Source: a virus
Strand: one strand, 5' to 3'
Length of the DNA: 48,602 nucleotides
Virus record (IMG/VR): IMGVR_UViG_3300032286_000417
Location: 1 to 48,602 of that record
Position 1 is the stretch's first letter; each line of letters opens with the position of its first letter. Positions 1 to 42,360 of this stretch are shown here, piece after piece. The translations under genes were made by a program, and so were the position numbers. Under the pieces are notes generated by a model. It had not been told where the DNA came from. It was given only the letters and a program-made list of their open reading frames with translations, and did not search any database.

Positions 1-828
1 CTGATATTCCTTCAAATAGGCTCGAATATCGTTACAATTTTTTCCCGAAGGCATATACTTAACTTGCAGGTGTCCTGCACGTTTTCCCAGCATTTTAACC
101 TTTAATTCCACATCATCAATGCTTTTAAAGATTTCTCTTGTACCAATGCCAGTCATCATACTGTCCAGACGCATAGACACTAAACCTTCACTCAATTCGA
201 ATGTCAGATAGATTACATTAAGTCCTGCCAACGCCCAGTTTACTCCCATGTTGGCTAGAAACAAACTCTTGCCACCACCCGATCCTGCACAAAAGATATT
301 CAGCTCACCTCTATTGAACCCACCGTAAAGTTTACGGTCAATGCTGGGCCAACCTGTGCTGATCTGTCCATTGCCATCTTTTAATTTGCTTAGACGTGCC
401 CTGGGATCTTCAAAATAGTTGGTACCCATGTCCTTGTTTAAACTGATCTGAATAGCGTCTTTGATCAGTTTCTCAACCGGGCCGTAATCACCTTTTTCCA
501 ACAGATCGGCACTGCTGACAATGGCTCTCTCTAGACCTTTGTGTCGACTAAAATTCTCAAACTCATTCATCAGCCATTCATAGTTTTCTTTGGGCAATTG
601 TGCAGGGTTGAGATCTATTTCGCAAGCTGCATTGACAATTGCCTGCTCTGGCATAATTTTATATTCATCAACATACCCGTTGATAAACTCGGCTGTTGAA
701 CGCAGTCTCTGATCAAAGTTTAATGGATCAAAAATATTTTGGCAGCGTATAAATGTTTCTGCATCTGAGAGAAACATCTCAAGATACAGTCTCTGGAGGT
801 CGTATGTGTAATTGGTTTTATTATTCAT
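1..828 (-). CDS. 41: Replicative DNA helicase, DnaB-type gp41 (3' end cut by window edge)
   Basis: This is the N-terminal 276 residues of a T4 gp41-type hexameric helicase; the rest runs off the left edge. I translated it from the ATG at 828, which lies inside the last codons of the primase gene (8-nt overlap), so helicase and primase are translationally linked. The Walker A motif AGSGGGKS is at residues 181-188, and the DnaB-type segment YLTFELSE is at 207-214. The N-terminal ~130 residues are a helical domain as in gp41. In T4, gp41 unwinds DNA 5'-3' at the fork and forms the primosome with gp61, whose homologue is the adjacent gene. No frameshift is seen in the visible part. Confidence 0.93.
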   Translation of the reverse strand, partial: MNNKTNYTYDLQRLYLEMFLSDAETFIRCQNIFDPLNFDQRLRSTAEFINGYVDEYKIMPEQAIVNAACEIDLNPAQLPKENYEWLMNEFENFSRHKGLERAIVSSADLLEKGDYGPVEKLIKDAIQISLNKDMGTNYFEDPRARLSKLKDGNGQISTGWPSIDRKLYGGFNRGELNIFCAGSGGGKSLFLANMGVNWALAGLNVIYLTFELSEGLVSMRLDSMMTGIGTREIFKSIDDVELKVKMLGKRAGHLQVKYMPSGKNCNDIRAYLKEYQ

Positions 829-1804
829 CAAGTGCTTCTAGTTTTTTCTTTAGTAATTCTATTTTTATCTTGTTGTCAGTCCTGTAGTGCAAAATTGTGG
901 CTAGAGTGTATAGACGCCCGTATTTCTTTACTGCATCCGCTACATCCTTGACATCATCGCCCCAAGGCGGTAAACTGGCACTCCAGCTGTTTGCAATCGC
1001 ATGTTTAAGCATCTTAGCACCTGGACGATCTCGATCTGGAACACAGATGATTTCTTTACCCTGAGCCTGTAATCTTGCAACTTGAGCATCGTTGGGCTCG
1101 TTAGTCATAATGGCCACACCATCTATAGCTATAGCATCAAATTGACCTTCTAAGGCTATGATGTATTGACGATCACGAATCTGTCTATCTAAATTGAATA
1201 CATAACCACTTTGACTTTCTGTAAGATATTTGGGCTTACCTTCTGTAAGTTTACGACCTGTGTAGCCAACAATTTTACCGTCTTGATAGAAAGGTATTAG
1301 GATTCTATCTGAGTACCCGGGCTCCGGACTCCACATCCAATCATACCAATCTATGTCCATGCCTCGGCCTAATAGGTATTCAATAGCCGGAGTAACATCT
1401 GTGCCTTGAGCAATCCATTCTGTTAGTAATTTACTGTCTTTGGGCAATGCTATTTCAGTTAGATTAAAGTTTAGAACTTTGGTTGCTTTGGGCATGTTCT
1501 CTTGATGTCTAAGAGCAACAAGATTTAACTTGCCAATGTCAAGTTCGCTAAGACCTAACCAACGGAATAACAGCTTGGTATTGCCACTTAATACTTTGCC
1601 CGGGCTCCAGCCTGCTTTAAATCCACAATTAAAGCAATGGTAAGTCCATGCTTCTCCGTCAGTTTTAATACCGCCACGTTTACGTGAATCTAATTTCTCG
1701 CCACGGTGATGACAGCAGACAGCGTTAAAACTTGTCCAGCCTCCGCTGGTTTGTTTTCGACTAGGTGGTAGTAGTGCTAGCAGTGCTGCTTGTATCTCAT
1801 TCAT
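821..1804 (-). CDS. 61: DNA primase, gp61 type
   Basis: This 327-aa protein is close to the 342 aa of T4 gp61. An N-terminal zinc-binding module is visible as C30-x2-H33 ... C57-x2-C60. A Toprim-like catalytic core follows, with the acidic residue in ALEGQFDA (E219) and the metal-binding DRDRPG segment (D257, D259). It makes RNA primers for lagging-strand synthesis together with the gp41 helicase encoded immediately downstream. The ATG at 1804 has no Shine-Dalgarno sequence. It lies 6 nt after the -10 hexamer of a strong sigma70-type promoter, which suggests a leaderless mRNA. Confidence 0.93.
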   Translation of the reverse strand: MNEIQAALLALLPPSRKQTSGGWTSFNAVCCHHRGEKLDSRKRGGIKTDGEAWTYHCFNCGFKAGWSPGKVLSGNTKLLFRWLGLSELDIGKLNLVALRHQENMPKATKVLNFNLTEIALPKDSKLLTEWIAQGTDVTPAIEYLLGRGMDIDWYDWMWSPEPGYSDRILIPFYQDGKIVGYTGRKLTEGKPKYLTESQSGYVFNLDRQIRDRQYIIALEGQFDAIAIDGVAIMTNEPNDAQVARLQAQGKEIICVPDRDRPGAKMLKHAIANSWSASLPPWGDDVKDVADAVKKYGRLYTLATILHYRTDNKIKIELLKKKLEALDE

Positions 1805-1810: not shown

Positions 1811-1839
1811 AGTTTAACTTCTGTACAAGAATTTGTCAA
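1811..1839 (-). promoter_or_regulatory. Sigma70-type promoter for primase-helicase
   Basis: Read on the minus strand this is TTGACA, a 17-nt spacer, then TAAACT. The -10 ends 6 nt before the primase ATG (1804), so transcription should start at or next to the start codon. The -35 lies inside the 3' end of the upstream structural gene. Confidence 0.75.
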
Positions 1840-2656
1840 ATGTTCCGCGGTAGTCTTGGTTATCTCTGTTGTTCAAATCCAGCGGGCCTCTTGCCGGAAC
1901 AACTAAGATGTTGAGGTACGAATAAACACCAGTAAAATTGGTGTAGGCAACACCGGTATAACCATTGTAGTTTAGAGTTTTAATGGTGCTGTAACTGGCC
2001 TGATCATTTGCATTGTTATTCAAAGTTCCTTGCACATAAACTGCGCCTTTGAATCCGGTTAGATAAAACGCCAATGTGTGTAGAGCAGTGTTTCCATTGT
2101 ATTCTGGACTGGCATAAATTGCACGACTCTTATACTCATATAGGTCCGTGCTGATGTTAAAACTCATCTGCAGATTTAAAACTTCTTGACTTGGTTGCAG
2201 TACAGGATAGATATCTTCATGGAGATGCAGTGTTCCGTTTATACCATAATAGGTATTGCTATAGGCAGGCAAGTAGGTGCCATCAGTTGGATCAACATAT
2301 TTTACACTATAGGTATAACTGGTCTTATCCAAATCTAGCGTGTCACTTTCGGTCAATGTTAGTTCTGCAATTCCTCTGGTACTGGTTGTACCTTGATCTA
2401 AAACAGTCAGTTCTTTTTCTAGAAGCACTCTTCTATTGATAGCATCATACATAGAGAAAACAAAAGTTTGAGTATTGCTAATGCTGATTCTTTTTTGATC
2501 GCTGTTTTTAAATTGAATACGGACTTTATTCTTAAGTCCCTTTTGTATTTTTAAATCGTGTTGGTACATGACTTGATTAACCCCGCGTATAGTTGGATCC
2601 AAATCTAACGTTACATCTAGATTATTTTGGTATAAATAGACTGGTAAAACTTGCAT
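1814..2656 (-). CDS. Putative virion structural (fibre/baseplate) protein
   Basis: This 280-aa protein has no signal peptide or membrane segment. The first ~130 residues are beta-rich and look like the BppU/Ig-like N-terminal domain of phage baseplate and fibre proteins (pattern VRIQFKNSDQKRI and an alternating hydrophobic register). The C-terminal half is rich in N, Y, T and G, as in phage adhesin domains. I do not recognise a specific T4 homologue. It has a late-promoter-like AATAAATA 5 nt before its ATG, which supports a late structural role although it lies between replication genes. It could be a small fibre or a capsid decoration protein. Confidence 0.55.
   Translation of the reverse strand: MQVLPVYLYQNNLDVTLDLDPTIRGVNQVMYQHDLKIQKGLKNKVRIQFKNSDQKRISISNTQTFVFSMYDAINRRVLLEKELTVLDQGTTSTRGIAELTLTESDTLDLDKTSYTYSVKYVDPTDGTYLPAYSNTYYGINGTLHLHEDIYPVLQPSQEVLNLQMSFNISTDLYEYKSRAIYASPEYNGNTALHTLAFYLTGFKGAVYVQGTLNNNANDQASYSTIKTLNYNGYTGVAYTNFTGVYSYLNILVVPARGPLDLNNRDNQDYRGTFDKFLYRS
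2631..2638 (+). promoter_or_regulatory. T4-type late promoter (TATAAATA)
   Basis: An exact T4 late-promoter octamer lies on the plus strand 35 nt before the ATG of the plus-strand gene at 2674. It is inside the coding sequence of the opposite-strand gene, so chance occurrence is possible, but position and orientation fit. Confidence 0.55.
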
Positions 2657-2673: not shown

Positions 2674-3057
2674 ATGAGTTTACCTAATAGTTTCCAAAAT
2701 AATCATCCCTTTATAGCGTGTATTAAATCTAACGATATTGAATACGTGGGCATCGTTATCAATTTAGACGATTTTGTTACCAGCATGTATGATATAACTG
2801 CTATACGCTCAGATGAAGAAAAACGTATATTCTTAGAATTAGGTGAAATATGGTGGTGGGAAAGCAATAGAAAGATACCTATTAATATTTTTCTTAAAAA
2901 AGAAATGCAATTATTTCGATATTGTATCAAGACATTTAACAGCAAGGACATAGAACTAGTGTTTGGCCCTGCGGTTAATCTAAGTGAAATTGCCGAAAAA
3001 AGAATCAAACGCAAGTCAATCCAGTTAGTAAGAACTCCTAAGAGTACCCGTAGCTAA
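2674..3057 (+). CDS. Hypothetical protein, orphan plus-strand gene
   Basis: A 127-aa product is predicted from the ATG at 2674 (MSLPNSF...). The open frame extends further upstream, but that part crosses the TATAAATA late promoter, so the internal ATG is preferred. The protein is soluble, with a hydrophobic/acidic N-terminal half containing a WWWES segment and a basic C-terminal end (KRIKRKS). I recognise no family. It is the only plus-strand gene in the first 28 kb. It converges on the DnaE-like gene with a 20-nt tail-to-tail overlap. An opposite-strand frame at 2703-3014 is judged to be its shadow. Confidence 0.6.
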   Translation: MSLPNSFQNNHPFIACIKSNDIEYVGIVINLDDFVTSMYDITAIRSDEEKRIFLELGEIWWWESNRKIPINIFLKKEMQLFRYCIKTFNSKDIELVFGPAVNLSEIAEKRIKRKSIQLVRTPKSTRS

Positions 3058-3619
3058 GTTCTTCACAAATCAAATTCATCTGTACCACAATGGCTATGGC
3101 ATAGGCAGTGGCGTGACTCTTCTTAAAATAATAATCATCAGTCGTTGGTTTGATCCAAATATCTGCCATAACGTCGGGCCAGCTCCGACCTAACAGATAT
3201 TTTTTTGCCGGCCGAATCATAGCCAGAACGGCCGCGAGCTGCTCTACGTTTCTCGGCTTCATCAATCTCAGTATTCTCCCGTGCCCATTCACCTGAAAAA
3301 GTAGGTTTACGAACTCGTCCTGTTCTAATAGATCCCATAGTGGTTCTGTCTCCAAAAGTGTAGTTAAATGTTTTTCATTTTTAACACCGTTATAGATATT
3401 GACATTTAAAAAATCAATTTTAAAATATCCCCGATCTTCTGCTTCTTTATAGTCTAGACTAGCAAATCCGTTTAACGGATTAACCGGGATAGAATGACAA
3501 TATACTCCGGTGTTGTGCTTTTTAAAAGTGCCATCTTCAGCTTTGATTGCTGCTGACACATGTTTAATTATTCCAAGCACTTTATTTCTGTCTGCAAAAT
3601 CTATATCAATATCTGGCAT
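3038..3619 (-). CDS. Miniature DNA polymerase III alpha (DnaE)-like protein
   Basis: This 193-aa protein keeps, in order, several landmarks of the ~1160-aa DnaE polymerase. They are PDIDIDF at residues 2-8 (the palm motif with two catalytic Asp), KHNTGVY at 34-40 (DnaE: KHAGGV), KIDFLNV at 67-73 (third catalytic Asp, D69; DnaE: KFDFLGL), LFQVNGHG near 107-114 (DnaE: VFQLESRG), AVLAMIRPAKK at 130-140 (DnaE: ALVALFRPGP) and FKKSHATAYA at 165-174 (DnaE: FNKSHSAAYA). The PHP domain, most of the fingers, the beta-binding and the OB regions are absent. Its start overlaps the sugar-kinase gene by 19 nt, so it is the last gene of the heptose operon. Polymerase activity is unproven; it may be a nucleotidyltransferase, a regulator or a decoy subunit. 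Confidence 0.72.
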   Translation of the reverse strand: MPDIDIDFADRNKVLGIIKHVSAAIKAEDGTFKKHNTGVYCHSIPVNPLNGFASLDYKEAEDRGYFKIDFLNVNIYNGVKNEKHLTTLLETEPLWDLLEQDEFVNLLFQVNGHGRILRLMKPRNVEQLAAVLAMIRPAKKYLLGRSWPDVMADIWIKPTTDDYYFKKSHATAYAIAIVVQMNLICEELSYGYS

Positions 3620-4398
3620 TTTTTTATCTCATCGTAAGTAGGAGCATAGTTTCCACGATGTTGGACAGTTAATCCTGCGGCTATGTTAGCAAACAGTATA
3701 GCTTTTTCTATATCTTTTGTAAAGAGATATTGGGCAGTTAGAGCAGCAAGAAATGTATCGCCTGCACCACATACATCCATAACTTCGGCTGGGTTAGTTG
3801 GATACAACTTTCCTTTATACTGTGCACCACGGTCACCTAATGTGACAATAAGATTTTCTGAAACAGTTACTGTATTTTTAAATTCAAGTTCGTTTATTTT
3901 AATGTAAACGTGCTCTGAACGATCTGTCATAGATGGCGGTGCAATATCAGCTAGCCGAGTTTTCTTTGTATCAATAAACACTGGACATTTTGCAGTTTTA
4001 ACAATAGATTCGATACTTTCGTAAGTTAGAAACCCTTTGTTGTAATCTGAAATTACAACGGCATCATATTGATCGAGGCTGTTCGGCAATCGACCACTCC
4101 ATTGACAGACCTCAATATCACTATCTACACGAAGCATGTGTTGTCCAGAACGCTTGTCTATATATCTACTTTTAACAATATCTTCATTATTAGTAACAAA
4201 GTCTACTGTAATACCTAGATTGATAAGATTGTCTTTGACGTTTGCTGCCATTCCACGCAGATCATAGGTTTCGATAATTTTAAGAATAGGCACAGGTGCT
4301 TCTGGACTTATTCTGTCTACTGTACCTATGTTGTATCGATCAGTACAACTATCACCTATCAGTAATACGTTGAATGATGTTGGTTGTTGAGTATCCAT
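3601..4398 (-). CDS. PfkB-family sugar kinase, HldE kinase-domain type
   Basis: This 265-aa protein resembles the N-terminal half of HldE (D-glycero-beta-D-manno-heptose-7-phosphate 1-kinase). The signature DRISPEAPVPI is at residues 28-38, followed by an AANV segment as in the HldE substrate region. The PfkB catalytic motif GAGD is at 211-214, with the general-base Asp. In LPS inner-core synthesis this enzyme makes heptose 1,7-bisphosphate. The start overlaps the upstream nucleotidyltransferase gene by 47 nt, so the two halves of bacterial HldE are encoded as separate overlapping genes. No GmhA or GmhB homologue is visible in the window, so the phage would rely on host intermediates. Confidence 0.82.
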   Translation of the reverse strand: MDTQQPTSFNVLLIGDSCTDRYNIGTVDRISPEAPVPILKIIETYDLRGMAANVKDNLINLGITVDFVTNNEDIVKSRYIDKRSGQHMLRVDSDIEVCQWSGRLPNSLDQYDAVVISDYNKGFLTYESIESIVKTAKCPVFIDTKKTRLADIAPPSMTDRSEHVYIKINELEFKNTVTVSENLIVTLGDRGAQYKGKLYPTNPAEVMDVCGAGDTFLAALTAQYLFTKDIEKAILFANIAAGLTVQHRGNYAPTYDEIKKCQILI

Positions 4399-4753
4399 CT
4401 ACTATATCCACAAAAACAATTTCTTTACAAAACTGTGCTCCCACTACGGGTTTATCTCTGTAATCACTACCTTTGACCATTACATCGGCATGATATATTT
4501 CTAACTGTTCTTCAAGATGTTCAGCGCTGTTAAAGATCATAACATAGTCCACTGCTTTGAGATTTGCCAGCATAAACTTTCTATCAATGAATGTGTTAAT
4601 TGGTCTCTCTGGACCTTTTAATTCTTTGACACGTTCGTCTGAGTCTATCAGCACCAGCAGATAATCGCCAAGACTTTTGGCATAATTTAATAATTCAATA
4701 TGACCTCTATGTAAGATGTCAAACGTGCCATTAACTACAATTCTTCGGGTCAT
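4352..4753 (-). CDS. Cytidylyltransferase-fold nucleotidyltransferase, HldE C-terminal type
   Basis: This 133-aa protein has the N-terminal motif NGTFDILHRGH (residues 8-18), with the catalytic HxGH as HRGH at 15-18. VKGSDY at residues 94-99 and a later YSTTNIIQRI correspond to the conserved KG(S/A)DY and STT.II.(K/R) segments of this fold. It matches the adenylyltransferase half of HldE, which makes ADP-D-glycero-beta-D-manno-heptose. It overlaps the epimerase gene upstream by 23 nt and the kinase gene downstream by 47 nt. A glycerol-3-phosphate or other sugar-phosphate substrate is possible from the fold alone; the neighbours favour heptose. Confidence 0.82.
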   Translation of the reverse strand: MTRRIVVNGTFDILHRGHIELLNYAKSLGDYLLVLIDSDERVKELKGPERPINTFIDRKFMLANLKAVDYVMIFNSAEHLEEQLEIYHADVMVKGSDYRDKPVVGAQFCKEIVFVDIVDGYSTTNIIQRITDR

Positions 4754-5516
4754 TTAATGTTGTGTTTAATTTGATTAGATCAGCACAGGTATATTTTTGA
4801 TATTGCTTCTCTAGATGCTTAGGCATGGGAATATATTCAACTTTGGCACTGTATCTGTCAGCAATCATGTTTGCAACTGATTCAAAACTTGTTGGCTGGC
4901 CTGTTCCTACATTCCATATGCCTGATTCTTTTACATTAAAAAATTTCTGATGAATATCAATTACATGGTCAACTGATACAAAATCTCTCAAATATGTATC
5001 ACTATGTTCAAATAATTTTATCACTCCAGTTTCTTTTGCCTGCTTAGTAAACACGTGATAGGGGCTTGGTTGATCTTTATGATCCTCATAAGGCCCGTAT
5101 ACATTAAAATAACGAAAACCTTGAACAAAAATGTTACCAAACTTTTGACTTTCTATATGCCTATCGAAAAGATATTTGCTCCATGCGTAGGGGCTTTGGG
5201 GGCTCTTTGGAGCAGTTTCTTTAAAATTTTGACCTAATCCGTATACACTAGCACTACTGGCATATTGTAGGTTAACTCCGTTCATTTGGCAGGCCATTAG
5301 AACTAGGCAACTAAAATCATGATTTTGTTTCATGATCTTTTCTACGTTTGTCTCTGCTGTAGAACTAATTGCTCCTAAATGAATACACCAGTCTAGTCCT
5401 TCAAACTCTGGAGGTTCTTCGCCCCATTCATATAATGACAGCTGGTGTTTGTCCTTAAGAGAGTTGACTATATTCTGGCCGATAAATCCTTTATAACCTG
5501 TAATTAGAATTTTCAT
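4731..5516 (-). CDS. hldD: ADP-L-glycero-D-manno-heptose 6-epimerase-like (HldD)
   Basis: This 261-aa extended short-chain dehydrogenase is shorter than E. coli HldD (310 aa). The nucleotide-binding motif is G7-x2-G10-x2-G13 and the catalytic pair is Y110...K114. HldD-specific segments are present: SSASVYG, FRYFNVYGPYEDHK, RDFVSVDHV, NVGTGQPTSFESVA and VEYIPMP. HldD converts ADP-D,D-heptose to ADP-L,D-heptose, the donor for LPS core heptosyltransferases. It lies between the cupin gene (4-nt overlap) and the nucleotidyltransferase, giving three consecutive steps of one pathway. A GT9 heptosyltransferase-like gene at 41428-42357 could use the product. Confidence 0.85.
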   Translation of the reverse strand: MKILITGYKGFIGQNIVNSLKDKHQLSLYEWGEEPPEFEGLDWCIHLGAISSTAETNVEKIMKQNHDFSCLVLMACQMNGVNLQYASSASVYGLGQNFKETAPKSPQSPYAWSKYLFDRHIESQKFGNIFVQGFRYFNVYGPYEDHKDQPSPYHVFTKQAKETGVIKLFEHSDTYLRDFVSVDHVIDIHQKFFNVKESGIWNVGTGQPTSFESVANMIADRYSAKVEYIPMPKHLEKQYQKYTCADLIKLNTTLNDPKNCS

Positions 5517-9047: not shown

Positions 9048-10265
9048 TTATACTTCACGCTTTTCTAAAACTGTGAGTCCGTTATTGTTTGTCTTGTGCA
9101 ATGCAAATTTCCATTCAGGATTTTCAATTACAAATTCTATAATAGCAGGTAGTAATCCTATATGAGTCTGGCCGCCTTCGTCCTTAGTACCAAACGTATG
9201 AGTATCATGGAACATCATATATTTTCTTACCTTGCTACTATGCAATTTTAATTCTTCCTTTAATTGAAAGTAGCTGTGCCAACTGTCTATAAAAAGTAAA
9301 TCAGTTGGTTCTATCTCAATTTTAGTTACATCTGCTATAATATATTTTACATTCTTTCCTTGGTCCTTTGCAATATCAAATACTGCTTGTGCTTGTTTAT
9401 TATGGAAAATATCGTAAGACGTTAACGTAGCGTTAGTATTTAAAAATGCTCGGGTACTGCATCCGTCACTGACTCCAAACTCTGTTACATGATTTACCTG
9501 TTCACCGTACTGTTTTAAAACGGGCAAATGTTCATTAATGTTAGATGGAGTATGGCAGGCATTTTCATATTCAATTTGTAAAGAGTGAGTTTTAAAAAGA
9601 ACACTTTTCCATTTTTCTAATTCTGGTTTGTAGAGCACTGTTTCTTTATCTAAAAAGTTGTTTACAATAGTTCCACTAGTTTGAGCATGTGGAGTATGAT
9701 ACAGCATGTCTGTTATGAGATAGTTTGTTCGCCCTTCCCACAATGCAGTATCAAACACCCAATTATCCCCGTAATACACTTTTAAGCAATCAGGAATATC
9801 GATCCAGGTGTCTTTATGTACAAACATTAGGCATCCGAATCCCATAGTATGTTCGCCTTCCCACGGTTTAATCTTTATCGATCCTGTTTGGAACAGAGGT
9901 TGATTATGATTAGGATCTCCTAGACATATTCCTACAACTCCGCACGTAGGAGAAAGTACTTCTTGTACATGATAAAATGCTTTGATGTCAAAAATAACAT
10001 CGTCGCTTAGAATACCTATGTGTTTATTTCTACTTTCTCTAACACCAATATTCCATGCAGGGTTAACGTAGATATTTTCTTTAAAATTTATCATACGTAC
10101 TTTCTCATGAGATAGTACCGGTGCGTTAGGCGTTTTTTCTATATCGTTATTGATAATAATAATTTCGTCAATAAGCGGAAATTTCACTAGGTCTGTTAAA
10201 AAATTAACGAATGGAGCATATCTCCACATGGTAGGAATAACTACCGAAAATTTTGAGTTTGTCAT
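9048..10265 (-). CDS. Glycosyltransferase-methyltransferase fusion
   Basis: The first ~200 residues of this 405-aa protein are a GT2/GT-A type glycosyltransferase: N-terminal FSVVIPTMWR, IIINND, NPAWNIGV and ILSDDVIFD, where the DD corresponds to the metal-binding DxD region. The last ~170 residues look like a class I SAM-dependent methyltransferase of the Methyltransf_24 type: VTEFGVSDGCSTRAFL as motif I, then LLFIDSWHSYFQLKEEL and MMFHDTHTFG. It probably adds and/or O-methylates a sugar. It lies directly after uvsW with a 4-nt overlap, so a glycan enzyme is embedded in the recombination operon. Acceptor and sugar are unknown. Confidence 0.75.
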   Translation of the reverse strand: MTNSKFSVVIPTMWRYAPFVNFLTDLVKFPLIDEIIIINNDIEKTPNAPVLSHEKVRMINFKENIYVNPAWNIGVRESRNKHIGILSDDVIFDIKAFYHVQEVLSPTCGVVGICLGDPNHNQPLFQTGSIKIKPWEGEHTMGFGCLMFVHKDTWIDIPDCLKVYYGDNWVFDTALWEGRTNYLITDMLYHTPHAQTSGTIVNNFLDKETVLYKPELEKWKSVLFKTHSLQIEYENACHTPSNINEHLPVLKQYGEQVNHVTEFGVSDGCSTRAFLNTNATLTSYDIFHNKQAQAVFDIAKDQGKNVKYIIADVTKIEIEPTDLLFIDSWHSYFQLKEELKLHSSKVRKYMMFHDTHTFGTKDEGGQTHIGLLPAIIEFVIENPEWKFALHKTNNNGLTVLEKREV

Positions 10266-11746
10266 ATATATTTTACTTTTTGAATTTCAAAAGGGTACTT
10301 AGCGTCTTTGTAAAACTTCTTCCGCTGCGTAAGGTGTCGTTTGGCATATTTTGTACTTGCTGTGAGATCCCAGATTTGTACGAAGTCTTTGTCGTCTGCT
10401 TTTCTAATGCCTCGCCCAATACTCTGTATAACTCTTGTAAAGCTCTTTCCGGGCTCCACAAGAACCAAATTAAAAATCCTAGGGATATTAATACCCACAG
10501 CGGCCACACCGTAAGTCGCCACAATAATCTTATTGGTACTAGTTTTAATTTCGTCATACTCTGCTTTTCTGTCTTTAGTTTTTACACGCCCCGAAATGAA
10601 TGCTACATCAGGTTTTTCTGATAATACACTGAATAATTCGCTTAGATGTGTTTGTAAAAATTCACCACATTCAATTCTATCTACTAATACCAATGTATTT
10701 CCTGTATTGGAAATTTCCTTGATCAATGTAGACATCCATGACATACGATCTCTGTCAGTTACTAAGAATTTTAATTCTTCTGCATAACCACTAAATTCTT
10801 TCCACTCAGCAGTTTGTATAACATTTACATGGCATTGACTTAACACACCCTTATCTTGTAGTTCATGTGCTGCTACACGATGTACTACTTCTCCCAGGCT
10901 ACAACGTAGACTTTGAAACTCAAAATCTTCTTTTGGAACCGTGCCCGTTAGCCCCCAACGAATAGGTGCATTGGCAATATTTCTTGTCAGCAGATTTTTA
11001 AGAACATCTGCTTTTGCCATATGAACTTCGTCAACCATGACACAATTTACGCCGTCAAGGAATTCAGCAAGACCTAAAATATCCTCATCATCCATGGATT
11101 TTTTGTCTAAAATATTCAAACTTTGCCAGGTACATATTGTATGTGTTTTGCCGTAATCTTTTCTGTCGCCGTAGTATACACCGACGTCTAACCCGCAGTT
11201 GATAAAGTCTTCCTCTGTTTGTTCAACTAAGCTCTTGTTAGGAACAATGGTTATTGTTCGACCGTATTTTTCACAGATTTTCGCCAAAGTTGCGGTAGTG
11301 ATTGTCTTGCCAAAGCCGGTGGCAATTTCTTGAATGCACTGAGGATTTTCTAAAAACTTGTTGATGACTTCGACTTGGTCGTCACGAAGTCTAATCTTTT
11401 CTCCTGCAAATCTATGACCTTCAGGCCATGTTTGATCACCCCAAAAATCTTCAAAAATTTCATCAAATTGTAGGTTAGTAGGATTGCGTAGATCTTCTAG
11501 CTCAATGTAGTAATTCTTACTTTCGAGATATTCTAAAACTTGAGGCAACATGCTTAGATAGGTAGTTCCGCCAAGACCAAAATAACTGACAGTACCGTCC
11601 CATCGACCTAATTTATAGGCTGGACGATACCGAGCAGTAGGATCTTCGTACTTGAATTTTTTAACCAAGGCCTTACGTGCGTCAAGATCTAAGTTTTCAA
11701 TCTTAACGTTTACTTCGTCCTTGATAATAACTTTACACGTTGCCAA
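10262..11746 (-). CDS. uvsW: UvsW-type DNA/RNA helicase
   Basis: This 494-aa protein matches the 503 aa of T4 UvsW in size. It has an N-terminal small domain (residues ~1-110), Walker A ATGFGKT at 142-148, a DEVH box at 239-242, SF2 motif III as LTGTV, and motif VI QSIGRGIRK near the C-terminus. In T4, UvsW unwinds R-loops and recombination intermediates, regresses forks and drives the switch from origin- to recombination-dependent replication. The gene start overlaps the preceding HARP-like gene by 14 nt and follows uvsX and uvsY in the same operon. Confidence 0.93.
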   Translation of the reverse strand: MATCKVIIKDEVNVKIENLDLDARKALVKKFKYEDPTARYRPAYKLGRWDGTVSYFGLGGTTYLSMLPQVLEYLESKNYYIELEDLRNPTNLQFDEIFEDFWGDQTWPEGHRFAGEKIRLRDDQVEVINKFLENPQCIQEIATGFGKTITTATLAKICEKYGRTITIVPNKSLVEQTEEDFINCGLDVGVYYGDRKDYGKTHTICTWQSLNILDKKSMDDEDILGLAEFLDGVNCVMVDEVHMAKADVLKNLLTRNIANAPIRWGLTGTVPKEDFEFQSLRCSLGEVVHRVAAHELQDKGVLSQCHVNVIQTAEWKEFSGYAEELKFLVTDRDRMSWMSTLIKEISNTGNTLVLVDRIECGEFLQTHLSELFSVLSEKPDVAFISGRVKTKDRKAEYDEIKTSTNKIIVATYGVAAVGINIPRIFNLVLVEPGKSFTRVIQSIGRGIRKADDKDFVQIWDLTASTKYAKRHLTQRKKFYKDAKYPFEIQKVKYI

Positions 11747-12923
11747 AATTAAATTCCTTTTGTTTGCTAGGTTCGCAATAATATATCAAATTTTCACGAT
11801 TTTTAAAGAAATCTCTAATTGTATAGTGTACATTAGATCTACCTAGACTTACAACACTATTGAATATCATTTTTGATTTTAAGACGGGCTTGGGCAATTT
11901 GATGCTGACAAAAATAAACTTGGTGGTATCAGTTATTGGATTGTTAAGTCCGCAATTTTTTACAAAATCATTAAAAGTTTTCCCCTCTGAGCTAGGCAGT
12001 CTAAACATAACACTCATTTTATCACTGGTGTATCCAAGGCCGGTAAGAAAATTATAAACCATCTTTGTCTTTTCTAATTCACTACCTCCGGGAATCACAA
12101 AAAGACAAGGATTCATGTGCTGAACAACATCCTTTAGACACTCAATTGACTCTGTTGTACTATCTATTTCAAAAATTCCGTCATAAGTGTTATCAAGAAA
12201 GGGTTTTATCAATGGATGTAAGTTGGCTTCTTTAAGTATGTTGCTTATTCCTTCATCCCATGTATTAATTCCAGATTTTCTAGCCGTAAAGACGGATGCA
12301 AGTATGTTCTCTCCGTCAATTTTTGGAATATAGTGACTAATATTCTTGAATACTACCTTGTTATCCTCTAATATCAACATGGGTACATATTTTTCCATGT
12401 TGTCGATGATATCATTGATTTGATTGAGATAATCTTTAAACTCTTCGTCGTACTCGAACGGTTCTTTTGAAGTAAGATTTTGAACAAATTTAAGATTTGT
12501 TTCGCTCAAAGAGAAATTCCATGTTTTGGCGTCACCGTCCCATGTGGCAAGACCCAAGTGATCTCTATGTTTCCTAATTTCACCAACTTTTTCTTCACTA
12601 TAAGGAAATTCCACTTTGATAATTTTACCCCATATGGGACATGTGGCAATAGTTACTCGCCTACTTTGAAGATTAGATGTTTTTCTGATGGCAAACCTAA
12701 ACTGAGGATTCATCAACTCAGGCGCGATTGTCTTTTTAATTGCAATTTCGAGATTATTACAATATTTTTTTAATAATTTAACCGCAAGCAGACTTTGCTT
12801 TTCCGTAAAGCCCCGGCCTGAAAAGATTTGATTGGAAAAACTTACAATAATGTTACTGTCAAATGAATTCACCTTGACATAACTGTTTAAATCTATGATA
12901 AGATCTTCAATATATACGGTCAT
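11733..12923 (-). CDS. Unknown recombination-operon protein with HARP-like segment
   Basis: The product is 396 aa from the ATG at 12923. That start is preferred because it overlaps the uvsY stop (ATGA) and has GGAGGA 9 nt upstream; the longer frame runs back into uvsY. Residues ~95-150 contain a pattern like the HARP domain of SMARCAL1-type annealing helicases: a small beta unit ending GLATWDGDAKTWNFSL. The rest has a P-loop-less alpha/beta look (CLFVIPGGSE). No helicase motifs are present. Since UvsW is encoded next, it may be a fork-recognition or regulatory partner of UvsW. The HARP resemblance is by eye only. Confidence 0.6.
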   Translation of the reverse strand: MTVYIEDLIIDLNSYVKVNSFDSNIIVSFSNQIFSGRGFTEKQSLLAVKLLKKYCNNLEIAIKKTIAPELMNPQFRFAIRKTSNLQSRRVTIATCPIWGKIIKVEFPYSEEKVGEIRKHRDHLGLATWDGDAKTWNFSLSETNLKFVQNLTSKEPFEYDEEFKDYLNQINDIIDNMEKYVPMLILEDNKVVFKNISHYIPKIDGENILASVFTARKSGINTWDEGISNILKEANLHPLIKPFLDNTYDGIFEIDSTTESIECLKDVVQHMNPCLFVIPGGSELEKTKMVYNFLTGLGYTSDKMSVMFRLPSSEGKTFNDFVKNCGLNNPITDTTKFIFVSIKLPKPVLKSKMIFNSVVSLGRSNVHYTIRDFFKNRENLIYYCEPSKQKEFNFGNV

Positions 12924-13375
12924 AGAGTAATATCCTCCAACCCAGCAGTTCTCAACTTGATAATATTGCTCAATTGCCACTGCTTGATATCAAGGCCCTT
13001 AATAATGCCTAACCATTGATTGCGTAGCATGGCAAATTCGTTAATGATTTTTTCCATATCAACTACATCTGCTTCACCGTCGACATATTTTTCAACATCG
13101 CGACTACTTAGAGCACGTTGGTAATTTTCAAGGTATTTTTTAAATGCCTTGCTGCGTGTTCGACGTAGCTCAATGTTCAGATATTCCAAAATTGCTTCAA
13201 TTTCTTGAAGCTGATTAAATCTATGTTCAACAATGCCAGGCAAAGAAGCAGAAGCCTTTTCTATGCTTCCATAGATTTTAACTTCTGCTCTTGCTTGGTC
13301 TAATTCGTTATAAAAGTGATCTAAACAGGTTGGTAAATGTGCTATGTCCTTTGAGACTTTAGCATACCAACTCAT
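12920..13375 (-). CDS. uvsY: UvsY recombination mediator
   Basis: This 151-aa all-helical protein resembles T4 UvsY (137 aa) and its marine phage relatives. Basic central segments (ELRRTRSKAFKKYLENY) are followed by a YVDGEADVVD motif and a C-terminal helix WQLSNIIKLRTAGLEDI. UvsY displaces gp32 and loads UvsX on single-stranded DNA. Both partners are encoded just upstream in the same operon (gp32, uvsX). The start shares its first base with the stop of the 84-aa gene (1-nt overlap). Confidence 0.85.
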   Translation of the reverse strand: MSWYAKVSKDIAHLPTCLDHFYNELDQARAEVKIYGSIEKASASLPGIVEHRFNQLQEIEAILEYLNIELRRTRSKAFKKYLENYQRALSSRDVEKYVDGEADVVDMEKIINEFAMLRNQWLGIIKGLDIKQWQLSNIIKLRTAGLEDITL

Positions 13376-30841: not shown

Positions 30842-31480
30842 ATGTATTTACCTAACAAATATACTCGTTGGTATGACGAGATCATACAACAAGCCAAGAA
30901 CAGATCTAAAGTTACCGGGTATACAGAAAAACATCATATTATTCCTAGATCACTCGGCGGAAATAATAAAAAAGAAAATATTGCAGTATTGACTGCTAGA
31001 GAACATTTTGTCTGCCATTGGCTATTGACCAAAATGGTTGACGGAAAATTTTTGCCTAAAATGCAAAAGGCATTGTGGAGGATGTTGGTCAACGGTGCTA
31101 ACTTTCAGGTAAGATATAAACCAAACTCACATACCTACGAACGTCTAAGATTAAAATACGGAACTTTGAAAAAGGGAATAATTACTTCTTCAGAAACCAA
31201 AGAAAAAATTTCAAAGGCAAACAAAGGAAAAATAGCATGGAACAAGGGAATTCCTAGAACCGAAGAAGAACGAAAATTAATGTCTAAAAGAAGAAAAGAA
31301 ACAGCCAATAAAGTACAAGTATGGAATTATGGAAAGACACATTCTCCCGAAACTCTCAAAAAGATCACAGAAAAAGCCAAAAATAGAAACAAATATAATT
31401 GCTGTTACTGTGATAAAATTGTAGCAGGAACTAATTTTTTTAGATGGCATGGCGAAAATTGTAAGTTAAAAATTCAATAA
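30842..31480 (+). CDS. HNH homing endonuclease with NUMOD-type repeats and C-terminal zinc finger
   Basis: In this 212-aa basic protein the HNH core is KHHIIPRSLGGNNKKENIAV (H31-H32, N45) followed by TAREHFVCHWLL. The middle has NUMOD3-like DNA-binding segments (ETKEKISKANKGKIAWNKG, then GKTHSPETLKK). The C-terminus is a compact finger, C-x2-C ... H ... C (NCCYCDK ... WHGENCK). Free-standing HNH genes of this kind cut intron- or HEG-less alleles and spread by gene conversion. It sits exactly between divergent gp13 and gp14, a typical homing position, and has GGAG 8 nt before the ATG. Confidence 0.85.
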   Translation: MYLPNKYTRWYDEIIQQAKNRSKVTGYTEKHHIIPRSLGGNNKKENIAVLTAREHFVCHWLLTKMVDGKFLPKMQKALWRMLVNGANFQVRYKPNSHTYERLRLKYGTLKKGIITSSETKEKISKANKGKIAWNKGIPRTEEERKLMSKRRKETANKVQVWNYGKTHSPETLKKITEKAKNRNKYNCCYCDKIVAGTNFFRWHGENCKLKIQ

Positions 31481-36683: not shown

Positions 36684-37511
36684 TTAGCTAACTGTATATT
36701 TATCTGTATATAATTCTTCAATGATGTTAAAGATTGAATATTTAGGATTGTACCCTAAGTTTTTAAGTTTAGTAGTATCCATAAACATGCTCTTAACCTG
36801 TACAATTTTATGGAATTCTGCTTGTTCTATATTATTGATTTGAGATGTAGATCCTAATTGTACTACATGATCAATGATATTTTTAAACTTAGTGCCTTGG
36901 CCATTTCCAATATTGTAAATTTCATTAACTTTACCAGAAGTCAATACAAGATTAACAGCAGCACAAAGATCGTCAACATGAATATAATCTCGAATAAATT
37001 CGCCGCCATCATAAAGATTAACAGGAAGCCCTTGCTTCATTTGATTAACCATGTAGGTAACAGCATTCTTTTTAGGGCCTGCCTTTGTATCACCCAGACC
37101 TAATACATTGGCAAATCTCAGTATTCGATATTTTAGTCCATGAGTTTCACAATAGCTTATCAGTAATTGCTCTGCGGTACGTTTTGTAATGCTATAAAAT
37201 CCTTTTGGATTACAATAACTATCTTCGCGAGCAGGTAAATCAGTATCGCCGTAGACAAACCAACTACTGACAAAATTAAAAACGCCACCTGGGTGGCTGT
37301 GACGCCAATTTTCTAATACTTTGATCAATGTTGTGAGATTAGTATCAATGTCAATATAGGGATTTGTCTTTACATGATAATTGTCAACGGTGCTGATCAT
37401 GTAAAGGATATCAGCTTCTTTAGGTATAAGATCGTTACGATCATTTATTGTACAAGAATATTGTTCGGCATATCGACTGCCAATAAATCCCTTACCAAAT
37501 AAGTTTACCAT
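36684..37511 (-). CDS. NAD(P)-dependent sugar epimerase/dehydratase
   Basis: This 275-aa extended SDR has a short nucleotide-binding motif FGKGFIGSRY (G6, G8, G11) and catalytic Y106...K110 (FYSITKRTAEQ). Sugar-nucleotide binding segments RFANVLG, GEFIRDYIHVDDLC and EIYNIGNGQG are typical. It overlaps the RfbH-like dehydrase gene by 7 nt and follows it, so it probably reduces or epimerises the keto sugar formed by that enzyme, as in CDP-3,6-dideoxyhexose pathways. The exact product cannot be read. Confidence 0.75.
   Translation of the reverse strand: MVNLFGKGFIGSRYAEQYSCTINDRNDLIPKEADILYMISTVDNYHVKTNPYIDIDTNLTTLIKVLENWRHSHPGGVFNFVSSWFVYGDTDLPAREDSYCNPKGFYSITKRTAEQLLISYCETHGLKYRILRFANVLGLGDTKAGPKKNAVTYMVNQMKQGLPVNLYDGGEFIRDYIHVDDLCAAVNLVLTSGKVNEIYNIGNGQGTKFKNIIDHVVQLGSTSQINNIEQAEFHKIVQVKSMFMDTTKLKNLGYNPKYSIFNIIEELYTDKYTVS
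36697..36704 (-). promoter_or_regulatory. Late promoter for the 98-aa gene (GATAAATA)
   Basis: The motif lies 29 nt before the ATG at 36667, inside the 3' end of the epimerase gene, followed by an AAGGAG Shine-Dalgarno sequence. Confidence 0.6.
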
Positions 37512-38782
37512 TTTTTAATAACCGACTTGATGTAATCTAATACCTGCTCATTGTATTGAGGAGTGCAACCTAAGAAGAATACATGACTTAATGCAAGATT
37601 AGAGTTTGGATATTTTTTATAATCGTCTAGGTGTTTAAAAGCACTGTGTATTAAAATATTACCTGCAAAATAGCTTCTGGTTTGTATCTTATTAGCTTCA
37701 AAGTGATCTACTAATAGTTCTTTTTCGTCTTGACTAGAGCAAATAATAGGAACGCCAAACCAACTGGTATCTGCTTGCGGTAACATTATTGCCGATCTCA
37801 CAGTTGGAATATTTTCCAACAGAGCTTTTTCAATTTCGGCCTTGTGGTATTTTCTCTTTGTATCAATCTCTTCTAATTTTGTCAATTGAATTGATCCGAT
37901 AGCACCCTGGAAGTCCAATGGCTTTAGATTATAACCAATGTTAGTGAATACATATTTGTGGTCAATGATGCCGTCGTAATCTTCTAACCAACGATCAAAT
38001 CTATTGCCGCAAGTACCACAGGCCAACAGATTAGCAGCGCCACTACAGCGGCAATCACGGCCCCACCAGCTAACACTGCGAACTAGATTAATAAAGTCCA
38101 TATCATCGCTACTGACCATACCCCCTTCACCTGTACTGATGTGATGAGCCGGAAAGAAGCTGCAAGTCCAACTAAAATAATAGTCAGTTAAATGGGCGCC
38201 GTTATAACGTGTACCAAGACTGTCACAACTATCTCCGATTAGGAGAAGACTATGTTGGTCACAGATTGCCTTTAGCCTGTCCATATCCGGAGGATTGCCT
38301 AATACAGGACTAACAACAATAGCTTTGGTCTTGCTGGTAATGGCCTGTTCGATAAGGTTAATATCAAAATTCAAAGTGTCCATTTCGATATCGATAAACA
38401 CTGGCTTTAGATTATTTTGAATAATGGGTGCAATAGTAGTAGGAAATCCTACTGGGCTTACAATTAATTCATCTCCATCTTGCCACTTAAAATATTTTTT
38501 AAGTGCGGTAAACATCACTAGGTTGGCACTACTACCGCTATTAACCATATGACTCTGTTTAACATTGAATTTTTTAGCAAATTCAAATTGAAACTGATCA
38601 ACGTATTCGCCGCTGGTTAACCATTTACCAGTTAAAAATGCAGATACCGCAGCCTCTACTTCTCTCCGATCCCAATATGGCCCAGAGTAAAGAACTGTAT
38701 CACCTTGTTTGAAGTTGTCATAATTTTTTATATAGGCGGGTTTGACAGTATCGCCGATGGATTTAATAATTTGTTCTATCAT
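37505..38782 (-). CDS. RfbH/E1-like sugar 3-dehydrase (DegT family, His in place of PLP-Lys)
   Basis: This 425-aa DegT/DnrJ-fold protein has SFFPAHHISTGEGG at residues 208-221. It carries His213-His214 where aminotransferases have the PLP-binding Lys, which marks the E1/ColD dehydrases. C186, then C244 after 57 residues, C246, and C255/C258 closely match the [2Fe-2S] pattern of CDP-4-keto-6-deoxyglucose-3-dehydrase (C-X57-C-X1-C-X7-C, here X8 at the last gap). GYNLKPLDFQGAIG is also E1-like. It would remove the 3-hydroxyl to give 3,6-dideoxy sugars. It has a near-consensus sigma70 promoter with leaderless geometry. Confidence 0.82.
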   Translation of the reverse strand: MIEQIIKSIGDTVKPAYIKNYDNFKQGDTVLYSGPYWDRREVEAAVSAFLTGKWLTSGEYVDQFQFEFAKKFNVKQSHMVNSGSSANLVMFTALKKYFKWQDGDELIVSPVGFPTTIAPIIQNNLKPVFIDIEMDTLNFDINLIEQAITSKTKAIVVSPVLGNPPDMDRLKAICDQHSLLLIGDSCDSLGTRYNGAHLTDYYFSWTCSFFPAHHISTGEGGMVSSDDMDFINLVRSVSWWGRDCRCSGAANLLACGTCGNRFDRWLEDYDGIIDHKYVFTNIGYNLKPLDFQGAIGSIQLTKLEEIDTKRKYHKAEIEKALLENIPTVRSAIMLPQADTSWFGVPIICSSQDEKELLVDHFEANKIQTRSYFAGNILIHSAFKHLDDYKKYPNSNLALSHVFFLGCTPQYNEQVLDYIKSVIKKW

Positions 38783-38788
38783 GGTTTA

Positions 38789-38817
38789 ATTTTAGCAACC
38801 CTAGAGACGATTGTCAA
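38789..38817 (-). promoter_or_regulatory. Sigma70 promoter for the dideoxy-sugar genes
   Basis: The minus strand reads TTGACA, a 17-nt spacer, then TAAAAT. The -10 ends 6 nt before the ATG at 38782. The -35 starts right after the stop of the sulfotransferase gene. Confidence 0.8.
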
Positions 38818-38819
38818 CC

Positions 38820-39731
38820 TTAGAGTTGTCTTTTTATTGTAGGAATAGCCGGTCGTGTCTGAATCTGGATGGTCGGTGCTGTAGGGGCATTTTTAGCAGC
38901 CTGCGGTTCGGCAACCCAATTTAACACTTTTCGTTGTTCAAAATTAGATTTCCAAAAACTCATAGGGCTATATCTATCCCAAAGTTCTCCAGGTAAAATA
39001 CTACGGCGATCTCGATATTCTACTTTTCGACGAACAGTATGCAGACCTTGAATTTTAGCCTGTTCATCAAATTCGTCGTAACTATCTTCCACATTGTCAA
39101 AGTCGTGCTCGTACCACGATTCACCTAAGAAGTTATATATTTGTTGCATTGAACTTCTCGGATACCTGACCAATGTATCATATTCTACATACAATATTTG
39201 AGCAGCTTCGTTGGCAAACATACTTTGTTGTACGTTGATTAACGGACCGTGTACATAACCTCCAAAGTTTGGCATTTGCCCCATTAATATACTGCATCGG
39301 TCATGAACATTTCCCAGTTCTTGATGGTGATACAATGGTTTAATTGTATGAGGATTTTTAGCATTAAGTTGCTCAAAGCTGTCTAATATCCAAGGAACAT
39401 CTCGAAGACATACTATCATCTTAAAGTTAGGAAATAGATCCTTGAGCAACGAAGTATCTGCTGTCCAACCTCGATTGGTATTAAAACAAACTTCATTGTC
39501 GTGCTTATAAAAGCTCTCAAACATGTCAAGCATGAGTTCTCGACGTTTTCCCACAGGTACCGCAGCGCTCATACCAACCGCAGTATTAGTATCTCTAGTA
39601 ATACTGTGTAGGTAGCTGTGTAGAGGATCACTGATCCCAGAGGTAAATCTAGGATTTTGTTTTAGTATAGAGCTTAACAGCGTTGATCCAGATCTAGGAA
39701 GTCCCGATATAAAATGGAACGTCTTTGTCAT
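38820..39731 (-). CDS. Sulfotransferase-family protein with Pro-rich tail
   Basis: The N-terminus of this 303-aa protein, FHFISGLPRSGSTLLSSIL (residues 5-23), is the PAPS 5'-phosphosulfate-binding loop of sulfotransferases. KMIVCLRDVPWILDSFEQL corresponds to the 3'-phosphate-binding strand and helix. After the catalytic domain comes a low-complexity tail rich in Ala, Pro and Thr ending RPAIPTIKRQL. A nearly identical ending is found on the glycosyltransferase at 44027. It probably sulfates a surface sugar; a kinase able to make PAPS is encoded at 35404. It overlaps the carbamoyltransferase stop by one base. Confidence 0.8.
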   Translation of the reverse strand: MTKTFHFISGLPRSGSTLLSSILKQNPRFTSGISDPLHSYLHSITRDTNTAVGMSAAVPVGKRRELMLDMFESFYKHDNEVCFNTNRGWTADTSLLKDLFPNFKMIVCLRDVPWILDSFEQLNAKNPHTIKPLYHHQELGNVHDRCSILMGQMPNFGGYVHGPLINVQQSMFANEAAQILYVEYDTLVRYPRSSMQQIYNFLGESWYEHDFDNVEDSYDEFDEQAKIQGLHTVRRKVEYRDRRSILPGELWDRYSPMSFWKSNFEQRKVLNWVAEPQAAKNAPTAPTIQIQTRPAIPTIKRQL

Positions 39732-41428
39732 TATTTCTTCTTTACAAGTTTACCAATCTCTGGTAGATACAAATAATCAATATCACTGTTGAGTAGTGTA
39801 ACTACTGCATCTACTATTGATTCAACTAATGGATCACCTGCTAGATTAAAACTGGTGTTGAATAACAAAGGAACTCCAGTCTTTTCGTGGAACGCTTTAA
39901 TAAGATCGTAATAGTGTTTATTTTGTTCTTGATTAACAGTCTGTACACGACAAGTACCGTCAACGTGAGTAACTGAAGGAATTTGATCTTTCTTATCAGC
40001 TCGAACATCTACAGCATACATCATGAATGGACTGGATTCAAGGCCGGCCATGTCAAACCACTCATCAGCATGTTCTTCTAGGCAAGATCCGGCAAACGGA
40101 CGGAACCATTCTCGACGCTTGACACGATTAACAATTTCTTTCCCATCTGGTATTCTAGGATCAAGTAAGATACTACGATTACCCAATGCACGAGGGCCGC
40201 CTTCCGCAGGTCCTTGGAATAGAGTAACAATATTACCTTGAATTAACAAATCAGTCATTTGATCAACAGTTGTATCTGTTATTTCTAAATTAGACACCTG
40301 ATTTAATATCAAATCTAGTTGGCTGTAATCAGGCGGAGCACCTAGATAGATGCTTTTTAATTTTTCTGGTGTAACTTCTTTACTATAATTAAACCAAGCA
40401 TATCTAGCCAAGCCTATCGCTGTGCCGCCGTCGTGTGCAATAGGATCAATATAGAACTTAACATCGGGGAATTTCTTCAAATACTTGTAATTTGCTACAC
40501 AATTTAGACCAAATCCACCAGAAATTACTACGTTTGTTTCGCCAGTAATATCTAGTGCCTTTTGAATAAGATCATACATCTGTTGTTCAACTTCGTTTTG
40601 AACATGCCATGCAAGATTTTTATCTACATCACGTACAAGATTAAAATCTTGATGCCATTCTTTTGGATCTGAAAATCTTCTCAGGTAAGGATTATGATCT
40701 TCATCAATTAATGCTCCAGCAGGATAGCGGGGAATTAATAGATTTTTATTGCCTTTACCGTTGATAAAAAATGCAGGAATATTTTCATCACGTTCTCCGT
40801 AAGGGGCTAGTCCCATGGTCTTACCAGCTTCAATAAATCCAAAGCCTAGGTAATTGCTCACAGCTTCGTAAGATTTGGTAATTGTTACGGTATTATCAAA
40901 TTCTTGAATGCCGTTGTCGTAATAGATTGCACTGCCGTCACTATACCTCTTATATACAGCGTTAAATTCGTGAGGGTAACTGCACTGATAGATGGTTTCA
41001 GTTTCAAACCCGGCAGTAACTGTATCAGTATTGCCTATTGCTTCTTGATGCACACTGCCTGCACCGTCAACAATTACTGCGGCTGCTGAATCAAAACCTG
41101 AATTATAAAATGCTGCGGCAGCATGTCCCAAGTGATGCAAGTTACCTAGATTAGTTACTTTCACATTAGGATTAAACTTACGAACCAAGGCAGTATACGC
41201 ATCTTCTCCGGTCCATGGCAATTTTGCCAAATCTGGACTAGTTCCGCCAATTACCAATTCATCTATTCTATTATAGATAAGGGCGTGTAACATGGCACGA
41301 AACGGATTACCGTCATATTTTAATCGACTGACACGTTCTTCTTCTGCATAATAGACAATTTCGCCATCTATTAACAGAGCGGCTGAACCGTTATGTCCAG
41401 GATTAATTGCTAAAACTGTGTATGCCAT
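39731..41428 (-). CDS. Carbamoyltransferase (NodU/TobZ family)
   Basis: This 565-aa protein has an N-terminal ASKHA-type domain (INPGHNGSAALLIDGEIVYYAEEERVSR, in part), HHLGHAAAAFYNSGF and VISGGFGLNCVANYK. It also has a C-terminal part with FQGPAEGGPRALGNRSIL and VPLLFNTSFNLAGDP. Both domains of the two-step enzyme, carbamoyl-adenylate formation and transfer, are present at full length. It would carbamoylate a hydroxyl of a sugar or other surface molecule. It is coupled by single-base overlaps to both neighbours in the glycan operon. Confidence 0.9.
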   Translation of the reverse strand: MAYTVLAINPGHNGSAALLIDGEIVYYAEEERVSRLKYDGNPFRAMLHALIYNRIDELVIGGTSPDLAKLPWTGEDAYTALVRKFNPNVKVTNLGNLHHLGHAAAAFYNSGFDSAAAVIVDGAGSVHQEAIGNTDTVTAGFETETIYQCSYPHEFNAVYKRYSDGSAIYYDNGIQEFDNTVTITKSYEAVSNYLGFGFIEAGKTMGLAPYGERDENIPAFFINGKGNKNLLIPRYPAGALIDEDHNPYLRRFSDPKEWHQDFNLVRDVDKNLAWHVQNEVEQQMYDLIQKALDITGETNVVISGGFGLNCVANYKYLKKFPDVKFYIDPIAHDGGTAIGLARYAWFNYSKEVTPEKLKSIYLGAPPDYSQLDLILNQVSNLEITDTTVDQMTDLLIQGNIVTLFQGPAEGGPRALGNRSILLDPRIPDGKEIVNRVKRREWFRPFAGSCLEEHADEWFDMAGLESSPFMMYAVDVRADKKDQIPSVTHVDGTCRVQTVNQEQNKHYYDLIKAFHEKTGVPLLFNTSFNLAGDPLVESIVDAVVTLLNSDIDYLYLPEIGKLVKKK

Positions 41429-42357
41429 TATTTGGTCTTCCTTTCGATGTCTGCTACAATGTTATTGAATAAAGAGTTTAATTCCACATCACTAAAGTTC
41501 ATTGAATTTTCATTAAGTCTGTTGCTTAACATAACATCTAGGCCGGTTATTCTAATAGGGCTATATTTTTTAGCATTGCCTTTGTCGATTATATTGAAGT
41601 AATCAGGGTAGCTGGTGTTGATAGGAAACGTTGAACCAAAAATAACACTACCAGGAGTACCTACAGCACGAGCCATGTGCTGGCCTACACTGTCAACTCC
41701 AATAAAGTAATCTGCTTCTGCAATTAGTGCAGCCCATTGGCGTAGATCGCAGGTATATTTTTGTGCAAATGTATCTTCTTTAAGTTGGAATTCTGGTTCG
41801 CCAAAAAATATCATATTGTATTTTTGGGACAATTTACGAACTAGGAACAAATAGTCTTTCTTACCAAGACTGCGACTTTCTTCATCCATGACTTGATCAC
41901 GATCTAATTTAGCTCCGCGACCAAATGGCTGAATGATCACAGTCTTTTGACGCTTTTGCATATTCTTTAAATCAAGTAATGTGTTCTCGGCAACAATTTT
42001 CTCTTGCTTGTTGAAAATCATTGTTGGGACACCGAGATCGCTATGGTCTGTTGTGTTGTTGATCTCACGATCAAATGCCTGCACTAGACTGATTTCTTGT
42101 CTAAAGTAGGCAGGATTGCGATATGGTTCTGGTGTAACAATCATATCGGCATTCTTAACTACATTGTCAAACACGCCCTTTGTGTCAATTCCGTAGGCTC
42201 GATCTTGTAATTCTGGGATTCCCCAATACAAGAAGTCCCATGCTGCTACCAAGACAGCCCAATCTGCCCCCGGGTTAAGTCTTGCATACTTTAATAATGC
42301 AGGAATGGCTGCAACTGCTCGGCCAGCGCCGCCATCGATCCAAAATACTTTTTTCAT
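41428..42357 (-). CDS. GT9 heptosyltransferase-like glycosyltransferase
   Basis: The N-terminal part of this 309-aa protein (KKVFWIDGGAGRAVAAIPALLKYAR) and the C-terminal donor-binding region (DLRQWAALIAEADYFIGVDS, GQHMARAVGTPGSVIFGST) match the GT9 ADP-heptose:LPS heptosyltransferase pattern, including the invariant GxDSxxxH-like element. It could use the ADP-heptose supplied by the genes at 3601-5516, linking two distant parts of the window. It is followed by a 3-nt gap from the GT2 gene. The acceptor is unknown. Confidence 0.75.
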   Translation of the reverse strand: MKKVFWIDGGAGRAVAAIPALLKYARLNPGADWAVLVAAWDFLYWGIPELQDRAYGIDTKGVFDNVVKNADMIVTPEPYRNPAYFRQEISLVQAFDREINNTTDHSDLGVPTMIFNKQEKIVAENTLLDLKNMQKRQKTVIIQPFGRGAKLDRDQVMDEESRSLGKKDYLFLVRKLSQKYNMIFFGEPEFQLKEDTFAQKYTCDLRQWAALIAEADYFIGVDSVGQHMARAVGTPGSVIFGSTFPINTSYPDYFNIIDKGNAKKYSPIRITGLDVMLSNRLNENSMNFSDVELNSLFNNIVADIERKTK

Positions 42358-42360
42358 CTG

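Follow-up and report, generated by a model that had tools for sequence, protein, structure and literature searches.

What can a phage protein of 193 residues do with the active site of a bacterial replicative polymerase? The window, meaning the entire 48,602-nucleotide stretch of viral DNA analyzed here, encodes such a protein on its minus strand. Its ORF, at positions 3038-3619, opens with an ATG that has an in-frame stop codon immediately 5' of it, and the plus strand of the same interval contains stops throughout and no gene. A preliminary description had noted six DnaE landmarks in this ORF, in the order found in DnaE, and all six are indeed present. Profile searches returned a full-length match to phrog_11778, annotated as "DNA polymerase" (E 2.2e-68, residues 3-187 of 193), and phrog_405, a family of phage DnaE proteins, matches as well (E 3.9e-8). 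Two NCBIfam models of DnaE, PRK05673 (E 6e-6) and TIGR00594 (E 1.5e-5), each align across three separate stretches, with scores of 23-24 bits that lie far below the family cut-offs of 434 and 1002, and Pfam alone gives a weak match to the finger domain. The similarity to DnaE exceeds chance. A search for tandem repeats near the gene found none. The gene, hereafter C-half, and its motifs are as follows.

3038..3619, minus strand: C-terminal half (C-half) of a split minimal Pol III alpha, from phrog_11778, AF2 and VIA; coordinates include the stop codon
3599..3613, minus strand: codons D3-D7 (PDIDIDF), with D5 and D7 as catalytic E. coli D401 and D403; invariant in 73 sequences, DxDxD in 84/84
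3413..3421, minus strand: codons K67-D69 (KID), equivalent to E. coli K553 and catalytic D555; invariant
3101..3133, minus strand: codons Y163-Y173 (YYFKKSHATAY), fingers; F165, K166 and H169 invariant

The AlphaFold2 model of C-half, built from the family alignment, has a mean pLDDT of 92.6 and a fold that is Pol III-like. In the VIA comparison, residues 1-191 superimpose on residues 461-841 of Taq Pol III alpha (Z 9.7), and the model matches residues 400-784 of E. coli Pol III alpha with a Z of 9.1 over 185 residues at 3.7 Å. Pol III alpha and PolC entries fill the first 13 VIA rows, unrelated chains score Z ≤ 3, and Foldseek places the same Pol III alpha/PolC entries first, with modest E-values. 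C-half thus aligns over its whole length with bacterial DnaE (1160 aa in E. coli) and shares the overall fold of residues 400-784, together with the D401/D403 palm strand, the K553/D555 pair and the KHxxG, RP and FxKSHxxxY motifs in the same order. Equivalents of K510 and of Y754-x-F756-x3-H760-x3-Y764 are also kept. From its spacing, Y163-Y173 is probably the counterpart of this last E. coli segment, Y754-x-F756...H760...Y764, in the nucleobase pocket. In PolC, Y1274, F1276 and Y1284 line the incoming-nucleotide site (PMC12592400), and the equally spaced finger residues of C-half likely correspond to them.

The 385 DnaE residues between 400 and 784 are nonetheless represented by only 193 in C-half. 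By alignment the thumb is deleted, leaving no counterpart of E. coli K439 to K461, which contact DNA (PMC7584608). Most of the E. coli finger segment 643-752 is likewise gone, including the conserved DnaE stretch LRRAMGKK (708-715). The loss of linking domains around retained catalytic aspartates, proposed at the outset, is borne out. Moreover, C-half aligns with E. coli DnaE from position 399, the first catalytic strand, so that the N-terminal palm and its GS motif are absent from the chain. At the other end, DnaE regions C terminal to ~784 are also absent; in DnaE these are the beta-binding, OB and tau-binding regions. Unlike bacterial DnaE, then, the 193-aa chain contains no PHP domain, N-terminal palm, thumb, full fingers, or clamp-binding, OB or tau-binding region.

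Such extensive loss raises the question of whether C-half is what remains of a host-derived dnaE after decay or interruption, a reading that draws on its being far shorter than host DnaE. The search for similar short phage proteins gave phrog_11778 and hundreds of relatives: at least 551 IMG/VR stretches encode one, and the best 80 of these show 65-75% identity over the best segment, nearly all with a shared start point. Isolate phages contribute 63 records with a relative over ≥80% of the length, including Atu_ph07, Phosso, RaK2, 121Q/PBECO4, GAP32, XacN1, PA5oct/Ettore and others. Across 73 aligned C-halves, D3, D5, D7, H35, G38, K67, D69, R136, P137, K139, F165, K166 and H169 are invariant. 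The three catalytic aspartates are present in 84/84 nonredundant members, more distant ones included; the pattern for the third aspartate missed one of the 84 sequences, that of Atu_ph07, which reads KFDFL and so has the aspartate too. The invariance of the aspartate triad, the lysine preceding the third aspartate and the finger K/H/F residues spans sequences down to 36% identity. Diverse C-halves start at the same point and have similar lengths, and the median dN/dS is 0.13 (159 pairs; range 0.06-0.21). The conserved residues and this dN/dS exclude decay, as the preliminary description had anticipated, and no larger, interrupted DnaE gene occurs at this locus in relatives. The fragment reading, refuted by this conservation, retains next to no probability. 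An upstream in-frame extension carrying the missing palm half was also considered; it is ruled out by the stop codon before the start and by the same start in relatives.

The surroundings of the gene were compared among 71 related loci with enough upstream sequence and 68 with enough downstream sequence (54 for the helicase).

1..831, minus strand: DnaB/gp41-like replicative helicase, cut by the window end (phrog_19, E 2e-38; 54/54 related loci)
821..1804, minus strand: DNA primase, T4 gp61-like (phrog_47, E 4e-39; 68/68 related loci)
1814..2656, minus strand: virion structural protein-like gene (phrog_14467), a constant neighbor (67/68 loci)
2674..3057, plus strand: phrog_11637 gene, convergent, sharing 20 bases with the 3' end of the C-half gene (E 1.3e-31; 68/68 related loci)
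3601..5516, minus strand: heptose genes by Pfam, namely PfkB kinase (3601-4398), nucleotidyltransferase (4352-4753) and epimerase (4731-5516)
10262..11746, minus strand: UvsW-like helicase, upstream anchor of the conserved block (phrog_16, E 3e-76; 64/71 related loci)

C-half had been described as ending a heptose operon away from the replication genes, and neither statement holds. Heptose genes occur in 9-11 of the 71 related loci (heptose kinase in 11/71), compared with 68/68 for the primase, and are an accessory insertion outside the conserved unit. Downstream of C-half, at 1.2-2.2 kb and on its strand, come the primase and helicase; upstream of it are uvsW, uvsX and gp32. The gene order of the window (uvsW, then small genes, C-half, the convergent gene, the structural gene, the primase and the helicase) recurs in RaK2, PBECO4 and Ettore; Phosso, SCTP-2 and a Vibrio phage share the downstream part of it. 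In Atu_ph07 the C-half gene precedes the primase/helicase by a few genes, and in XacN1 the neighborhood is different. The presence of phrog_11637 next to C-half in all 68 loci and in most isolate phages suggests a linked role. A family-B polymerase was found in all eight complete jumbo genomes searched and in G001, G003 and G031, three large contigs with both halves of the polymerase (see below), but not in the 48.6-kb window. A linked proofreading exonuclease (PF00929) was considered as a constant companion and discarded, as it occurs in only 3/7 genomes.

This neighborhood bears on the proposal that C-half is a decoy or inhibitor, mimicking DnaE to bind the clamp loader, tau or clamp of the host replisome. 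The similarity to DnaE would suit such a protein, and a phage might well have reason to disturb host replication. However, the gene sits in a conserved phage replication block, the DnaE clamp, OB and tau-binding regions beyond ~784 are missing, and neither a decoy nor a clamp-loader or tau binder needs invariant catalytic residues. We found no support for these roles and consider them highly improbable.

Several further genes of the window were noted. The uvsW start is overlapped by a gene for a 415-aa protein (11733-12980, minus strand) with no PHROG or Pfam match. A NUMOD3/HNH homing-endonuclease-like gene lies between structural genes (30842-31480, plus strand). A surface-sugar-like cluster (37505-44881, minus strand) comprises DegT aminotransferase, two sulfotransferase-like, carbamoyltransferase and glycosyltransferase-like genes, assigned by Pfam at 37505-41428 and by reading for the remainder. 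Finally, 45716-48526 (minus strand) encodes a 936-aa tail-fiber-like protein with many NTTGxxNxAxGxxAL-type repeats and a C-terminal Peptidase_S74 chaperone domain.

If C-half begins at the first catalytic strand, where is the rest of the palm? A second short gene, detected with Pfam PF07733, is present in 8/8 complete isolate genomes and matches only profile positions ~16-98 of 260. Its product, N-half (family phrog_11127), is ~165-182 aa long and has a C-terminal end of the form ...GxGRGSSVASYVLYLIGxHKxDSIKYxLDxxEFL(K/R), in which the GS motif is nearly invariant. By sequence N-half corresponds to E. coli DnaE 323-392 (E 7e-7 in a search against that single sequence), and by structure its model (pLDDT 91.3) corresponds to residues 271-393 with a Z of 10-11. 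N-half thus ends at E. coli 392 and C-half begins at 399, a break of about six residues, and as judged from alignments and models the two together cover one palm plus fingers. The dN/dS of N-half is 0.31. Its residues 1-60, in place of the PHP domain, match no clear fold.

The two halves are co-inherited almost without exception. N-half is present in 62/63 isolate records that carry C-half, the sole exception being PP728206, which is 109 kb long, bears the label UNVERIFIED and has relatives among phages of ~346 kb, and in 9/9 of the IMG/VR contigs >250 kb that were tested and carry C-half. IMG/VR fragments mostly hold one half, with both in 2/24 and 2/22 records, because the genes of the two halves lie ~10 to 185 kb apart. 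In three genomes inspected, N-half is a few genes from clamp-loader gp44. The 48.6-kb window does not contain N-half; a PF07733 match in it was rejected, as this covers only 15 residues, is subthreshold and falls on the start of C-half itself. Nevertheless, a 270-kb relative (G001), with a C-half 70% identical to that of the window, has N-half and a family-B polymerase, and from such relatives we infer that the phage of the window probably carries N-half as well.

Both halves are also encoded, ~11 kb apart, in the 141-kb genomes of Alishewanella phages Slicko01 and Slickus01, which are complete and circular. Therefore, the C-half family occurs outside jumbo phages. The family-B polymerase of Slicko01 and Slickus01 is itself divided between two open frames of 578 and 322 aa, such that both polymerases are split in one phage.

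The existence of N-half changes how C-half is to be read. The view that the 193-aa chain is by itself a complete minimal nucleotidyltransferase takes its strength from the presence of all three catalytic aspartates in a single chain and from a confident model when that chain is folded singly. Yet the chain has no first palm strands or GS motif, and a complementary protein with precisely those parts accompanies it in nearly every genome, making it very unlikely that C-half acts alone. Accordingly, of the initial proposal that C-half compresses the DnaE active site, the catalytic aspartate triad stands, while the N-terminal palm with its GS motif is encoded by a second protein elsewhere. The related suggestion of a minimal nucleotide-adding enzyme remains plausible for two subunits but not for C-half alone.

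A split minimal DNA polymerase III alpha was predicted in group 2.2 jumbo phages by Iyer et al. in 2021 (PMC7824862), and that prediction is thus already known. C-half belongs to the same protein family, with the same division into N- and C-subdomains encoded by distant genes, and relatives of C-half likewise occur in genomes with a family-B polymerase and T4-like replication genes. Unlike those jumbo phages, the window is a fragment with C-half only, and the family as described here extends to 141-kb, nonjumbo phages. In a survey of marine jumbo phages, PF07733 was present in 51.9% of one large cluster (PMC9123017), a figure that fits N-half. The full-length DnaE-like polymerases of Streptomyces phages are also phage family-C enzymes, but they match C-half weakly (28-29% over about half), and the one examined, from phage Muntaha, is a single chain of 1095 aa, unlike the split enzyme. 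Rossellomorea phage phiT1 was considered as a case of the same split and rejected: it has two DnaE genes (573 and 469 aa), but the N piece extends past the split site. The phiT1 genes are separated by a 49-aa ORF and are split at a different place from the jumbo-phage polymerase. Our search of the open-licence literature found no experimental test of the joining or activity of the two halves. New here are the exact split site; confident models of both halves, placed complementarily on the same solved enzyme; the co-inheritance counts; the constant neighbors; the selection estimates; and the occurrence outside jumbo phages.

Collectively, we consider it likely that C-half pairs with a second chain in a family-C polymerase that lacks a thumb and operates alongside the family-B polymerase of the phage. 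C-half would be the metal- and template-binding half; it carries the three catalytic aspartates and reduced fingers, and N-half, encoded far away, supplies the GS motif and the initial half of the palm. The two chains are predicted to bind each other and form one Pol beta-like palm, which would add nucleotides to a primer. The missing thumb, clamp-binding and OB regions, as well as the missing PHP domain, predict an enzyme of low processivity, most likely suited to short synthesis (primer extension, gap filling or repair) near the primase and helicase and beside the family-B replicative polymerase. Our best guess is a role in primer extension or gap filling next to the primase and the family-B enzyme.

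Because the thumb and the LRRAMGKK finger segment are deleted, activity could be weak or lost. The halves might then assemble into a catalytically weak or dead pair that serves as a structural replisome part, touching the primer end or holding a dNTP; inactive polymerase domains have such structural roles elsewhere. The presence of another, full-size polymerase, the family-B enzyme, is in keeping with a pair of this kind. It is harder to see why such a pair would preserve the aspartate triad, the preceding lysine and the finger K/H/F residues down to 36% identity, or a nearly invariant GS motif in N-half, and we regard this outcome as unlikely, though it carries some weight. The two-chain polymerase can also be stated more boldly, as a working thumbless family-C enzyme of ~360 aa in total that is dedicated to primer extension or lagging-strand synthesis and hands over to the family-B enzyme, which would make a two-polymerase phage replisome. 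We advance this form only tentatively, as a possibility on the doubtful side. At that size it would, to our knowledge, be smaller than any known Pol III-type enzyme.

Given the exact split site, the motif positions and the matched models, two small proteins of a cultured laboratory phage suffice to put the 2021 prediction to a direct test. If the halves reconstitute a polymerase, it would be the most compact version known to us of the fold used by bacterial replicative polymerases, and would reveal which domains the chemistry can do without. A family-C and a family-B polymerase would then operate side by side in many large T4-like phages.
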